In this document: positions 1 through 22,003 of the stretch, one piece after another
Layout: every line of letters starts with the position of its first letter
Numbering within the stretch: the stretch's first letter is position 1
Source: Saccoglossus kowalevskii
Taxonomy: Eukaryota; Hemichordata; Enteropneusta; Harrimaniidae
Assembly (NCBI RefSeq): GCF_000003605.2
Contig: NW_003142304.1
Location: forward strand, 555,159-596,655
Reading direction: 5' to 3'
DNA: 41,497 nucleotides
Notes under the pieces: model-generated
Database searches by the model: none
The model's input: the letters and a program-made list of their open reading frames with translations, nothing else
Told to the model about the DNA's origin: nothing
Position numbers and translations under genes: made by a program

Positions 1-782
1 CTGTACTCAGGGCTATAGTCGTATCCAACAGTTCACATGGACGTACTGGGAGCTCCATGGTCTCAAAAAAATCATGTGTAGCATTATCACGCGCAACTTG
101 AATGTAAATATTATGCAATAATAATGGTAAAGTTTAATCTCTGACAAATAAAAAGACGCAACAAATTGACCTGGTGGTGTATTTGACCTCGAAAGCTACT
201 GCATAGCAAACATGAACAAAATGATTTATAAACAGACTATAACTACAAACTAAACAAATTCTACTCAAATTAATTCTACAGTTTTGCTTTCTCAGGCGAT
301 CCTGTGCATAAAACTGAAATTTAAACAGGTCGGCATTTTACCGGTAAACCGGAAAATCAATGCATAAATTAACTTGTCAGAAGTGTGAATTGCCTCCTGC
401 CAGTACGGTAACGGCCTTGCCGGTACGGCTAATGACCTTCGGGTACGGTAAAGCAGCGGCCGGTACGGTAAAGCAGCGGCCGGTACGGTAAAGCAACGGC
501 CGGTACGGTAAAGCAACGGCCGGTACGGTAAAGAAACGCATGCCGCAGGAGACTCACAGGAAACCGGCTTGGTGGTAATGATCAGTTCCCTTATACTTGA
601 CTAGACTAGACTAATAATCACATTTGTAACAATTCTGATTTATTTCCCATGCATCCAGGTCTATTCATGGAAATACAAAATGTTTTTCAAAGATTTGCAT
701 TGTGATAACTTTTCATCTTTCCAGCTGACCTGTATTCTTACGGGATATCTATTTATTTCAAACTTTTCATTCTCTTCCCAAG
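1..782 (+). other. KCNMA1: Slo1 intron (5' part beyond the window), with a GC-rich minisatellite
   Basis: This stretch precedes the first visible Slo1 exon and ends in an acceptor with a pyrimidine-rich tract (ttcattctcttcccaag). I found no exon matching the conserved RCK1 segment that should lie just upstream, so that exon is taken to be outside the window. The only structured element is the minisatellite at 401-540. Confidence 0.7.
401..540. repeat. 20-bp minisatellite, GC-rich
   Basis: Five consecutive units of 20 bases (cggtacggtaaagcarcggc, first and last diverged) run from 441 to 540. Degenerate related sequence, with the same ggtacgg core, extends back to about 401. The array stands out as GC-rich against AT-rich flanks. 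The minus-strand reading frame across it is a by-product of the repeat, not a gene. Confidence 0.9.
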
Positions 783-3205: not shown

Positions 3206-3282
3206 AGCGTATTATTACTGTAAAAGTTGTCATAGCACAATATCAGATGTAAGAAAAATAAGACAATGCAGGTGTGAGAGTG
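3206..3282 (+). CDS. KCNMA1: Slo1 exon: post-RCK1 CXXCH (heme-motif) segment
   Basis: This 77-bp exon is preceded by a T-rich acceptor ending tttatag and followed by the donor gtaagt. The first base completes the Arg codon of the previous exon. It reads [20 protein letters not shown] then CRCES, matching vertebrate AFFYCKACHDDITDP...KKCGCK. The CKSCH pentapeptide preserves the CXXCH motif reported in mammalian Slo1 as a heme-responsive site in the RCK1-RCK2 linker, and the downstream Cys pair is also kept. It leaves in phase 1, the same position at which vertebrate Slo1 inserts the stress-axis (STREX) exon, so the following long intron is where alternative cassettes are expected. Confidence 0.95.
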
Positions 3283-8452: not shown

Positions 8453-8521
8453 ATGTTAGAGAGACTATCCTTTTTGATGCTGAAACTTTAACAAAAGATG
8501 AGTTTAAAGATGAAGTTTCTG
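8453..8521 (+). CDS. KCNMA1: Candidate Slo1 alternative cassette exon, 69 bp, acidic
   Basis: A long pyrimidine-rich tract (tttatttttctcttgctgtt...atcaag) precedes the candidate and the donor gtaaga follows. It enters and leaves in phase 1, exactly compatible with the upstream (3282) and downstream (12750) exons, and is 69 bp, so inclusion keeps frame. It would insert DVRETILFDAETLTKDEFKD then EVS, a strongly acidic peptide, directly after the CRCES cysteine segment, at the site where vertebrates place the cysteine-rich STREX exon. The peptide is unlike STREX as I recall it. Quality of splice signals, length and phase make this the best of the cassettes in this intron; expression is not shown. 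Confidence 0.65.
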
Positions 8522-12749: not shown

Positions 12750-12837
12750 CACTGTCAACTATTCCATCAAACCTTGAAAAGGGCAAGTACAATGGTAATT
12801 TGAGTCCAGGTGGATCTCCTCACAAGTATGGGCCGAG
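12750..12837 (+). CDS. KCNMA1: Slo1 exon: RCK1-RCK2 linker (LSTIPS...SPGGSPHKYGP)
   Basis: This 88-bp exon follows the acceptor tcctacttag and precedes the donor gtaaag. The first two bases complete the phase-1 codon of the upstream exon. It reads LSTIPSNLEKGKYNGNLSPG then GSPHKYGP, aligning with the vertebrate linker segment beginning PSTLSPKKKQRNGG and ending SPNTSPKLM. The linker is disordered and Ser/Pro-rich in the family and is a target of phosphorylation and splicing diversity. It leaves in phase 2 and can join exons at 15308, 17415 or 19894, all of which begin with the one base needed. Confidence 0.92.
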
Positions 12838-15307
12838 GTAAAGTTTCTGTTATTGTTTTTAGTTTCATTGCAATGTTTGTGGATGGTGGTTTTTACATAC
12901 TGTGTACACTGTATCCTCAGTTGAAACCTGATAGCTTCCCTTCATGCTGTTAAATTGTTCAATAACACCATGAATGGGACATTATAAAATTTAATTAAAA
13001 GAAACTCGTATACTTTCATATTTTGATTGTAATTTGGTCTTTATTATGTTTTGTGACCTACTTTTCTATACAATAGCAGTAATGACTATAAAAAAACGTG
13101 AATGTATCAAATGGTGTGAAAGCGATACTTTATCACACCTGCCACCTCCTTTAGAAAAAATAATATGAAATGATTTGTTATGATTCAGGAGTAAGGTAGG
13201 ATTCTGGCACAGTTTAATTTTAGCATCTAATATTCACTCTCAGCAGAATATATTTATTTGAAAAAACTTCTGTATATTACCGGTAATTGGGTGCCAATTC
13301 TGCACACAGTGGCTGGCCACTGAGGGCGCTCATATTGATCAAACTACTGAGGGTGCTCATAACACTGTGACTTAAGTTGTGATTAGTAGGTCTACCAAAG
13401 TCAACTTCAGGCACCATCCACAAAATAGTTCCATTCATAGTCTGCTCTATTCTATAAAGAATGTTACGAAAATTTTATCAAAAACTAGAAGCAATGTCAC
13501 ATTCTGTCTGTTTGGTCCAAAATTGAGATTGAATTCAGTGAAAATTACAGAAAATGTGAAAAAAATGTACCCCAATTTGAGGGAAAAAAAATTGGCTCTC
13601 AAAATATTACTGTTGTAGTGTTGGTGTTAAAGCGGAGGGGTTGTCACCTGCTCATGCACAAGAATTGAGTCCCATGCGTCAATAACAACGTATGATAACA
13701 ATGCAAAGGCTCATGGGTAGACACTTGTTTGTAAACAACGATACGCCATGACCATCTGCTGCATGCGCAGGTGACGACTCCCCCCTGCAATCATGAGCAG
13801 TTAGTTATGTTGAAATATGTCTTACTATATGTGTGCACAAAACACACAAGGTGTTTTGTATCATTACAGACTTTCCATTTACACACCTTCTGGTCTTGCA
13901 AATACATGCATATTACAGGCGTGTAAGCTTTCAAAATCAATAGGGATGTGTCATGGTTCAAGTCAGTTATTGCTACTCGATAATTTCATTACTGTTTGCC
14001 ATTGAATAACCTGTATTATGAATGCTAAACCTTCTGGGTACTAGTGTTTGATAAAGTTAATTATTACCTCTTTTCCACTATAGGTAAATGCAGTTTTCCT
14101 GTTATTATAGCTAACTTTTATATTCGTATGTAATGGTGTTCTGTACAGGCTATAAGAGGTCCCCAAGAAACCTATTACCTTTGTAATAAGATTTTTCAAC
14201 TAGGTCCATAGAGGGCGCTGTTTTCTTGCTGCTTTCTCCTCCCTTGGTCAATAGTGGGCTATGGCTAGAGAATCCATCCCCCAGTTCCTACATGTATCTC
14301 TATAGTGGCAACTGTTAATGCTGACCTGATCTTAACTGTGATGTTAAATTTGTTTTTACCTTTCATTTCAGCATTTAAATAAGTTATTAAAAATAATATG
14401 TTAATATTTTAGATCCAATTATACTTCCAGTAGCGAAATTTTAAATTACTTTGTGCATATCATAAATGAAAAAGAATGTCATCCTTTGCCACATTGTTAT
14501 GGTTGTTTTCGTTTGGTTTTAAAATTTTAAACTGGTTTGTTGATTTATGAATAAGTTATTCTCAAGCTTGGGACAACCATTGGTTATTGTGTTTATTTCA
14601 AATCATTCCTAAAAAGTGTAACCAAATGTCTGTGTTCAATACCAAAATTTGTATGTACAAACTTTGCGCTGAGTGAAGTAAAATTGCCACATCTATTTCA
14701 CTCACAGGTTTCATCATGCTTTCCTCATTGCTTTTCACAATGCCCCATATACATGTACTGCCACTACAAAGATGTTAAGTCAGTCTGCAGTAGAAAAGAA
14801 GGTGTGATCTTGGTGTATCTTATCTGCGGCATATTTTGTGTTTAGCAAAAACAAAATCAATCTGTTTCAGACATCTGTTTAAGAAAGAAATATATAATTT
14901 GGATGTAGACCTATTATGAATACAACGTTGAACCTCTTAGTGGTTTGATGTGAACTATATGAAATGAACAAATCCATGTGAATTAGCATTGAAACCGATC
15001 TATCACCCATTTATTGTCTTATCTTTTGCATTCAAGAAAATGTCTGGTGACATTTGGGTATATGCTATGAAACAGATATTGACCAATTTTAGAAAAAAAA
15101 ATTAGATTATTTGATTATTTAATTTTGGTATCACACTGAATTGTAGAATCACTACCAATAAGTAGTTTGATTGCAATATGTTTATTTGATTATTTTATTT
15201 GTTTCTTCTGACTTATAGTTTTCAAAAGTGCATGTAGTAGGAGGAATGAACATATACTTCAATAACCTCAACCATATTGCTCCCTTTTAATTTTGATTTG
15301 TGAACAG
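12838..15307 (+). other. KCNMA1: Slo1 intron without recognised elements
   Basis: About 2.5 kb of AT-rich sequence. Reading frames at 13379-13618 and 13817-14005 lack recognisable domains or phase-compatible splice sites. I see no clear repeat or regulatory element. Confidence 0.6.
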
Positions 15308-15485
15308 AGCACGAAGTCAGAGCTTGTACACCGATGCAAAAACGGTCTCTCTTCTGCAGCGAGCTAGGACCGTTTCGACATCAGCGAGGACCAAAGATGC
15401 TGACAGTTGTGTTATAGTTACTAAGGATGATATGTCTCTACCGTTAGTGTTTAACAACAATTATAGTGTAAAACTAATATAACCA
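15308..15485 (+). CDS. KCNMA1: Candidate Slo1 linker exon with two donors: in-frame cassette or truncating exon
   Basis: A good acceptor (tgctcccttttaattttgatttgtgaacag) opens a frame in the correct entry phase 2 from the exon at 12837. It stays open for 57 codons (ARSQSLYTDAKTVSLLQRAR then TVSTSARTKDADS and beyond) and reaches TAA at 15480-15482. A strong donor, gtaaga, starts at 15486 just after the stop; splicing there (178 bp) gives a transcript truncated in the linker, lacking RCK2 and the calcium bowl, or sent to nonsense-mediated decay. A weaker donor, gttagt, at 15443 would give a 135-bp exon ending in phase 2, in frame with both downstream exons. The peptide has basic-Ser/Thr motifs (RARSQS, RARTVS) of the kind used by basophilic kinases. 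This segment is not one I recognise from other Slo1 proteins. Confidence 0.55.
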
Positions 15486-17414
15486 GTAAGAGTTCAGAAC
15501 ACAAATTCATTGAATGTGTCATCATTTCAAGTAATGGAAAACATTGCTAACAATCAATGCTTTGGGCATTTATAACGTAATCTTGATCTGTAAATGTATA
15601 TCCTGCATAAAATTCTGTTTTTAAAGTTTATTTAAACTTATGATTCAATCTGATTAATACTGTGTTTAAGGTAGGGGCTCTGATGGCGCTTTAAGGACAC
15701 AGGCGATGATTTATGGTCATCGGTGTTACACACCTTTAGCTACATTTGACCTACAGTATGCAAATCACACCCAAGTCTTGTGGTTCCAGCAGCCAATCAG
15801 AAATCATGTTACAGGCTGCTTTCTGAAATGACACATCATATTTTGGTAGGGTGTACTGTAATTGGTTGGCAAAGTCAGAGTTGAGCTGCCAAATATGATT
15901 TACATCAGGTAGTTGGTCAGAGGTAGTTTGTGGAGTGTATAAAGACATAAATTGGTCATAAAATGACGACTGTGGATTAAAAAGAACCGGAGCCTTTCTA
16001 CTAACACCAGATATTAATCATATTAGTTACATTAATGTCACATTGGAAAATGAAATCTGGATATACTTTAATTTGGCTGCCAGTCTGCCAGTTCACAAAC
16101 ACCCTGGACCCTATTAAATGAATGTTGTTTTCTGAATTACTGCAACTAAAGTGAGAGATGGCACAGATGAAATAAATTATGATAGATAGTTATTTCATGT
16201 AAGATGGGGTCCATCACAAACTTGTATACTAATATATAATAATGATGCACCTTCATTATAAACTCTGCCATCTCTTACTGACACCAGGGGGATTGTCACA
16301 GGTAAGCAACTTCACTGTTTTTACAATGTCATCCTTCGCAATGAAATCCTATTTATGGTTTTGATTCCAGAGAAATTGCTTTTAATAATTAAATTAAATA
16401 TTTTAAATAAATTTATTGAAAACTGGGCATATTATTAGTTTTAATAAATTACCACAGTTCACACCTGTAGATGCATTACGTATGTGTATACAGGAAAGTT
16501 GAACTTGAAAATTAGGCTCAATTAACAATGTCTTGACCCTAAAAAGGTGTTTACTCTGAATGTAGTTGTCTACAGCCTGAATTCTCAGTACAGCCACATG
16601 AGATCTACAGAGTGTTGCTTACCGTGAATAATTTCCTGTGATGCCAATTTTGAAGTTGACATAAATGTATTTTTTAATGTATATACTACCGTACTCAAAA
16701 TGGATTTGAGTCGAGTAAGGTCGGTGTCTATGTATTGATGTGTGATGGACATTGCATCTACGCAGTAGAAGATGGTGTTTTTGGAAGTCACTGATGTAAT
16801 GGTATTTAGTATGATTCTGAGCACAATTAAGTTTTATTATTAAGGTTATGAGGTTGTACTCCCTCAGTTGTCCCCTTACAATAGTAAAATTGGTGAGTCT
16901 CCCTCCCCTCCCTCCCCTCCCTCTCGTTCTCCATCTGATCCCTATCCTTGACTATTATTTACATTATTTTCTGCTTGAATTTTTTTGTGAATACCAGTCT
17001 TTGCTGACTGAGACTCTACTTTCACTTGTATGCGGTAGTCTTTTAAGACAGTGTACCAAGAATGATTTGTATATTCTAGATAAATGCCGCAACAATGGAG
17101 TAACATATATTCCAATACCTTTAATAGTTTGAATGTAGCTCTGTTGACATCAACACAAATATTGATAATAAATCGTCATAATTTTGTTCCATTTTCATTT
17201 GGTTGGGTACTTGTCTTACAGTCAACCGCATATATAAGGATAAAAATATACAGTCTCAGTTTCACACCAATCACTTCACCAAACACCTTTGATAATTTTA
17301 GATCAGTAAAAATCCGTCGCACATCATACCGTCACAATTAATCCATATTTTGTTGTTATCCTTATAAATGTATCACTAATAATTATCCTTTAAATTTGTT
17401 TATTTTTTTTTTAG
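15486..17414 (+). other. KCNMA1: Slo1 intron without recognised elements
   Basis: AT-rich intron with a short ccctccc-rich stretch near 16900-16925. An AG...GT segment around 16858-16890 reads openly, but its exit phase does not fit the neighbours. Nothing else is recognised. Confidence 0.6.
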
Positions 17415-17486
17415 TACTCCTCGTACACGTCCCCGTCTTGGAGGGATGCCTCACCTTCATATTTCGGAAGTGCCTAAGTCCTATCG
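17415..17486 (+). CDS. KCNMA1: Slo1 linker exon, 72 bp, Arg/Pro-rich (constitutive or cassette)
   Basis: A T-rich acceptor (tttttttttag) and the donor gtgggt bound a 72-bp exon entering and leaving in phase 2, matching both 12837 and 19894. It encodes STPRTRPRLGGMPHLHISEV then PKSY with a split Arg, and is clearly richer in GC and CpG than its flanks. The position corresponds to the vertebrate linker around SPKLMRHDPLLIPG, and a loose similarity (basic start, hydrophobic middle) is possible. Because 12837 can also join 19894 directly in frame, the exon could be skipped. Confidence 0.8.
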
Positions 17487-19893: not shown

Positions 19894-20032
19894 ACCCTGT
19901 AGTTATCCAGCCAGTACAAGGAATGCCTTATCTATTGCGGAGCAAAAGGAAATTGATGAAGACACTAAAAGGTTTGATTCCACCGGAATGTTTCATTGGT
20001 GTCCATCAAGAGACATTGAAAATGTAGTATTG
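19894..20032 (+). CDS. KCNMA1: Slo1 exon: linker to start of RCK2 ([10 protein letters not shown])
   Basis: This 139-bp exon begins with the base completing the split Arg codon and ends in phase 0 at the donor gtgagt. After a linker portion (PCSYPASTRNALSIAEQKEI...) it reads [20 protein letters not shown], matching vertebrate [20 protein letters not shown], the conserved entry to RCK2. The acceptor tract (acatcaatacag) is relatively poor in pyrimidines, which may make its recognition dependent on enhancers. The linker part has no close match to the vertebrate PGNDQIDNMDSNVKK stretch beyond its acidic character. Confidence 0.95.
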
Positions 20033-21684: not shown

Positions 21685-22003
21685 GGATCGCCACTAAGTC
21701 GGGCTGATCTACGCTCAGTCAACGTTAACTTATGTGATATGTGTGTCATACTATCAGCTAATCAGGGCAAAGCAGACGATCCGTACCTCCAAGACAAAGA
21801 GACAATCTTAGCATCGTTAAATCTGAAAGCAATGACGTTCGACGAGAGCGTGGGCTTACTACGTGCATCCTCACAAGGTGATATAAGCGGTAACAACAAC
21901 AGTAGAGTAGCGCTTGATGCAACTAATTCATGTCACCTTGCTAGCACTAGTCATTCTGTTCGCACTGCTTCGGCTGTACATGACACTGAGATAATGGAAG
22001 GTG
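21685..22003 (+). CDS. KCNMA1: Slo1 exon: RCK2 ([13 protein letters not shown]), two alternative donors
   Basis: The exon starts in phase 0 after ctttcag and reads [40 protein letters not shown] and [20 protein letters not shown] then ASSQG, matching vertebrate [27 protein letters not shown]. Two donors leave in the same phase 1: gtgata after 21877 (ending at SQ-G, the position of the vertebrate exon end) and the much stronger gtaaga after 22003. The long form adds 42 residues rich in Ser, Asn and Thr ([17 protein letters not shown]...EIMEG). Both forms join the exons at 23818 or 26711 in frame. The frame remains open past 22003 to 22344, probably by chance. Confidence 0.93.

Follow-up and report, generated by a model that had tools for sequence, protein, structure and literature searches.

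The stretch of DNA that was analysed here, which we call the window, comprises 41,497 nucleotides (555,159-596,655) of contig NW_003142304.1 of the hemichordate Saccoglossus kowalevskii, and its + strand carries the 3' portion of a gene for a BK potassium channel (Slo1, KCNMA1-type). The identity of the gene as BK comes from a phmmer comparison with PDB BK structures, in which the best E value was 5e-80, and from a Pfam match to PF22614 (Slo-like_RCK) at 1.3e-37. The gene model, for which the window and 100 kb of upstream sequence were used, has 19 exons spanning S4 through the final coding exon, and the phases agree at 17 of its 18 consecutive exon junctions, the exception being the upstream S4-pore junction. 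An additional RCK1 exon lies at -8209 to -8141 relative to the window. The linker between RCK1 and RCK2 is encoded by exons in the order x2, x3, x4, x5, x6 and x7, of which x3 and x5 are candidate optional exons. The features on which the analysis of x5 is built are these:

3206-3282, + strand: x2, exon with the CKSCH motif
12750..12837, + strand: x4, upstream linker exon (ALSTIPSNLEKGKYNGNLSPGGSPHKYGP + AG), phase 2 at its end, terminal bases ..CCG AG
Starting at 12838, + strand: intron of 4.6 kb, phase 2, containing the candidate exon x5
15306..15307, + strand: acceptor AG of x5, matrix score 6.5, previous AG 64 nt back
15308..15442, + strand: x5, probable cassette exon, 135 bp, phase 2-2, 45 aa, with a coding score of 0.388 bits/codon and the pseudo-exon scan as evidence
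15308..15323, + strand: RARSQS, its first Arg coming from the splice junction with 12836-12837
15360..15377, + strand: RARTVS, entirely within x5
15443..15448, + strand: in-frame donor gttagt, weak (4.45; U1 pairing -3.7 kcal/mol)
15443..15485, + strand: extension belonging only to the second-donor form, intron-like, with TAA at 15480-15482
15486..15491, + strand: second donor gtaaga (9.79; U1 pairing -4.5 kcal/mol), giving a 178-bp exon that breaks the frame
17415..17486, + strand: x6, downstream linker exon (TPRTRPRLGGMPHLHISEVPKSY)
19894-20032, + strand: x7

The sequence-only reading had described x5 as one acceptor serving two donors in a frame that is open for 57 codons and carries two basic-serine motifs, and each of these elements was found when the sequence was checked. 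The acceptor AG directly precedes 15308, the in-frame donor is CC/gttagt and closes an exon of 135 bp, and the second donor is CCA/gtaaga and stands three bases past an in-frame TAA. The junction codon, AG+A, encodes Arg, and it is followed at 15309-15479 by the 57 open codons in the required phase. Both RARSQS and RARTVS are present, and the former requires the Arg that is made by the junction. Since x5 is 135 bp long and of phase 2-2, the reading frame between RCK1 and RCK2 is kept whether it is included or skipped. When x5 is skipped the linker reads GPS-TPRTRP, and because the junction makes the first Arg of RARSQS, skipping removes both RxRxxS sites and leaves a Ser at the junction. RxRxxS is a motif of the Akt/SGK/PKA type. 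Two RxRxx[ST] motifs are present in the x5 peptide and in 71 of 20,000 shuffles of that peptide, in a test that was chosen after the motif had been seen.

An open frame by itself is cheap in this DNA, as 303 stop-to-stop ORFs of at least 45 aa on both strands overlap the window, and coding character was therefore scored with two models. The kinase-locus model is a second-order periodic model based on 26 ORFs of at least 170 codons (28.9 kb) that were found at 30 kinase loci of this genome. Some of these ORFs may be shadow frames. With this model 18 BK exons were scored, the S4 exon being excluded. By this model the score of x5 was higher than that of 14 of the 18 BK exons and lower than that of the other 4, and the other frames of x5 scored 0.16 and -0.46 in the forward direction and 0.03, -0.10 and -0.57 in reverse. 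Only 9 of 427 intronic ORFs of at least 44 codons on both strands reached the score of x5, in a null set from which the ORF near -14547, the RCK1 exon at -8209 to -8141, x3 and x5 had been masked; 6 of these 9 were in CGGTACGG-type repeats and the other 3 were on the minus strand. In a simpler model trained on the BK gene x5 scored 0.32 bits/codon, 16 of the 18 exons scored lower (leave-one-out), the frame of the gene was the best of the six, and 12 of 434 intronic ORFs reached x5 under a lighter masking of x3 and x5 only. The coding signal begins at the acceptor and has faded out by position 15441 or so. The GC content of x5 is 0.47 compared to 0.23-0.30 in its flanks, and 1.2% of 135-bp intron windows are equally GC-rich. 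Thus, 15308-15442 is well supported as coding sequence.

The splice sites of x5, in contrast to its coding score, are weak. With matrices built on 18-19 sites of the BK gene, the acceptor score of x5 is below the range of 7.5-17.8 for 19 other acceptors and the score of its in-frame donor is below the range of 5.4-13.3 for 18 donors (both leave-one-out). Within its own intron the acceptor ranks 82nd of 216 AGs and the donor at 15443 ranks 94th of 310 GTs, and GTs as good as this donor are common, there being 921 in 50,478 intron bases. Its U1 pairing is the weakest among 24 sites, and that of the donor at 15486 is the next weakest and equal to one real donor. The stretch of 64 nt free of AG before the acceptor is matched by 13 of 217 intron AGs, that of x5 included. 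Such weak sites are what is expected of an optional exon. Two splicing-factor words lie nearby, TGCATG at 15229 and ACTAAT at 15473, which we take to be a Fox site and a STAR site, respectively, and the former is unremarkable since 65.5 kb of this DNA contain 44 copies of TGCATG.

Places where the sites, the frame and the coding score come together were scanned for in two ways. The first scan, with the BK-trained model and each intron's own phase, gave 71 forward and 63 reverse candidates, and x5, with a coding score of 13.9, was 7th of the 71 by combined score. The six above it were the real RCK1 exon, x3, two repeat hits and two candidates in one coding-like ORF; coding scores of at least 14 were reached by 3 forward candidates and by 0 reverse candidates. 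The second scan, with the kinase-locus model, covered 50,658 intron bases on both strands and in three phases, and it accepted a candidate when its acceptor, donor, in-frame length and coding score were each at least those of x5. It returned nine rows at three places, namely, x5, a repeat at -2127, and a long coding-like ORF near -14450. When the same criteria were used on the 12,960-base 3' flank there was one hit, on the minus strand at 28855-28625. The joint pattern is therefore rare outside coding or repetitive DNA, whereas the single sites are unremarkable.

Some of the other places that came up in this work deserve mention in their own right. The exon x3 at 8453-8521 (+ strand, 69 bp, phase 1-1, DVRETILFDAETLTKDEFKDEVSG) is likely to be a linker exon and may also be optional; its splice sites are better than those of x5, with matrix scores of 11.4 for the acceptor and 10.8 for the donor. 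The coding-like ORF, which has 143 codons, lies on the + strand about 14,550-14,140 bases before the start of the window, within the RCK1 intron that separates ..AMRSNSE from INKDTWQ.., and has a good acceptor and a good donor in phase 0. It is Ser-rich, a Pfam search with it gave no match, and it could be either a large optional RCK1 insert or part of a nested gene. At 398-538 (+ strand) there is an array, detected by TRF, of a 20-bp CGGTACGGTAAAG-type unit, and by eye a second array was recognised upstream, some 2,100 bases before the window; such arrays have several open frames and look like coding sequence to both scoring models. Further downstream, the RCK2 exon that ends at 21877 can be read in frame through 21878-22003 (+ strand) to donors after 22000 or 22003, which would add 41 or 42 residues. 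The donor after 22003 scores 12.4 compared to 5.4 (leave-one-out) for the donor after 21877, and from the sequence an alternative 5' splice site after 22000/22003 is probable.

The second donor of x5 was examined with the same measures. The 43-bp extension to which it leads has a GC content of 0.23 and scores -0.106 bits per codon with the kinase-locus model, that is, it is without coding signal, and of 628 thirteen-codon windows taken from BK exons 5.4% score no higher. The low GC content and the low coding score of the extension point to 15442 as the end of the exon. A GT as good as that at 15486 is expected by chance with a probability of 0.043 within 43 nt and 0.096 within 100 nt, and at the 18 other exon ends no donor as good was found within 100 nt. 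As this donor is better than chance usually gives at that distance (p about 0.04), a truncating form is possible. In the gene model eight exon junctions follow the stop codon of the 178-bp form and, by the general rule, mRNA decay would be likelier than a stable truncated channel if the donor were used. With regard to an alternative last exon with a poly(A) site, a search up to 17414 found the first AATAAA/ATTAAA past the TAA at 15976, roughly 500 bases away.

The explanation that we consider probable is that x5 is a real in-frame cassette exon whose inclusion is conditional, so that cells choose between a linker with and a linker without a kinase-sensitive segment. Upon inclusion of x5 the RCK1-RCK2 linker would gain 45 residues and two RxRxxS sites, RARSQS across the junction and RARTVS inside the exon, and upon skipping it would be a plain linker without these two sites. 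It is the weakness of both the acceptor and the donor that suggests that inclusion is conditional and thereby that a choice is made between two linker types. The coding character of x5, its correct frame and phase, the one copy that was found and its weak sites are observed; that it is spliced in, that its inclusion varies, that its sites are phosphorylated and that gating is altered by them are inferred.

The sequence-only reading had gone further and proposed a switch between an insert and a truncation, and of this the first half stood, as the in-frame 135-bp linker exon with its basophilic kinase motifs is well supported as coding by the kinase-locus model and by the second scan, while a regulated switch to a truncated product stays a proposal. 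A true dual-donor switch is fairly unlikely in our estimation. In such a switch the weak proximal donor would give the in-frame insert, and use of the stronger distal donor would append 13 codons followed by a stop, leading either to degradation of the mRNA or to a subunit that lacks RCK2 and the calcium bowl. The matrix score of the distal donor, which ranks 6th of the 310 GTs in the intron, speaks for the switch, and so do the low chance of finding such a donor within 43 nt and its absence within 100 nt of the 18 other exon ends, but the 43 bp that would be added look like intron, an early stop is expected anyway on reading into an intron, and this donor, too, pairs weakly with U1. A broader version, in which x5 controls BK in three ways, by skipping, by the proximal donor with its two AGC-kinase sites, and by the distal donor with a stop before RCK2 leading to mRNA decay or an RCK2-less subunit, such that kinase sensitivity is tied to channel dose through one acceptor, and in which this compact exon arose independently of the vertebrate STREX exon, is likewise unlikely.

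Use of the 178-bp form alone, as a truncating or poison exon, has the far better matrix score of its donor (9.79 against 4.45) on its side, but 44 codons of strong in-frame coding signal that end at the weak donor argue against it and a pure poison exon needs no coding signal, and we hold it to be very improbable. The remaining explanation is that x5 is a coding-like stretch that arose by chance or is a relic, such as a dead exon, and that splicing no longer includes it. Consistent with this, neither site of the 135-bp form scores as high as any of the constitutive sites tested, its coding score is reached by 9 of 427 intronic ORFs, and a homologue was not found in PDB or Pfam; however, frame, phase, boundaries and coding score all coincide in x5, and elsewhere the joint pattern was met only in a repeat and in a coding-like ORF. 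We therefore regard chance or a relic as quite improbable.

The assembly holds at least one copy of x5 by protein and at least one by DNA, with one match in each search, and a second copy was not found in 141 kb; with a single assembly match and no other copy in that distance, an origin from a repeat or mobile element is not supported. When the insert alone was compared with PDB sequences at E values up to 10, only an unrelated enzyme was returned (E 2.2), and the sole Pfam hit, zf-XS at an E value of 0.23, was below the cut-off and was rejected. In shuffle tests x5 gave p values of 0.61 with the C-terminal part of STREX, 0.54 with the human downstream exon and 0.65 with the Aplysia linker. 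After follow-up, a phmmer alignment that extended across a STREX-like stretch was not considered significant; chains that we take to carry STREX scored 271.0-272.0 bits and, among the human-type chains, those that we take to lack it scored 268.6-271.2.

How x5 compares with the optional exons of other BK genes can be stated for vertebrates and nematodes. Like STREX of vertebrate KCNMA1, x5 is an in-frame cassette of the RCK1-RCK2 linker, and x5 has two basophilic Ser sites. Unlike STREX, which is a Cys-rich palmitoylated segment, x5 has one Cys, and sequence similarity was not found between x5 and the C-terminal part of STREX, which was the part compared. As this similarity is undetected, x5 is at most STREX-like in action and is not classed as STREX. 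The role of x5 is most likely that of a STREX-like linker cassette that adds kinase sites, yet is not STREX. By intron order, on human positions and phases that we assume, the STREX slot would correspond to the intron of x3, the first after the CKxCH exon, and x5 lies one intron downstream of it. On the other hand, TPRTRPRLGGM of x6 weakly matches SPKKKQRNGGM, which belongs to the human exon that follows STREX (p 0.03 in one of 12 comparisons made without correction; the shuffle-test p values for x3, x4 and x6 are likewise uncorrected), and this match would place the intron of x5 at the STREX slot. STREX lies in the disordered vertebrate RCK1-RCK2 linker and sets the regulation of the channel by AGC-family kinases, and its palmitoylated Cys pair is C645/C646 (PMC4122160).

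In nematodes, the two-donor cassette of C. elegans slo-1 is located in the RCK1-RCK2 linker. Compared by description, x5 and this cassette are alike in having two alternative donors in a BK gene, but the second donor of x5 breaks the frame. The C. elegans exon is described as either present or not and as having two 5' splice sites, and in Trichuris a splice choice in slo-1 yields a severely truncated Slo-1 (PMC4270693). The Trichuris truncation is caused by intron retention in the S4-S6 region (PMC4270693), whereas that of x5 would come from the second donor in the linker. These nematode cases provide a precedent for each ingredient of the x5 finding, and they also count in favour of the dual-donor switch.

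Optional exons tune BK channels in several animals, and x5 would be a known kind of variation. If x5 is real, it would be a further phospho-switch in the BK linker without similarity to STREX, one that may have been invented independently, and it provides a precise exon to seek in RNA. Use of the second donor as well would put the regulation of the channel and also its amount under the control of a single exon.
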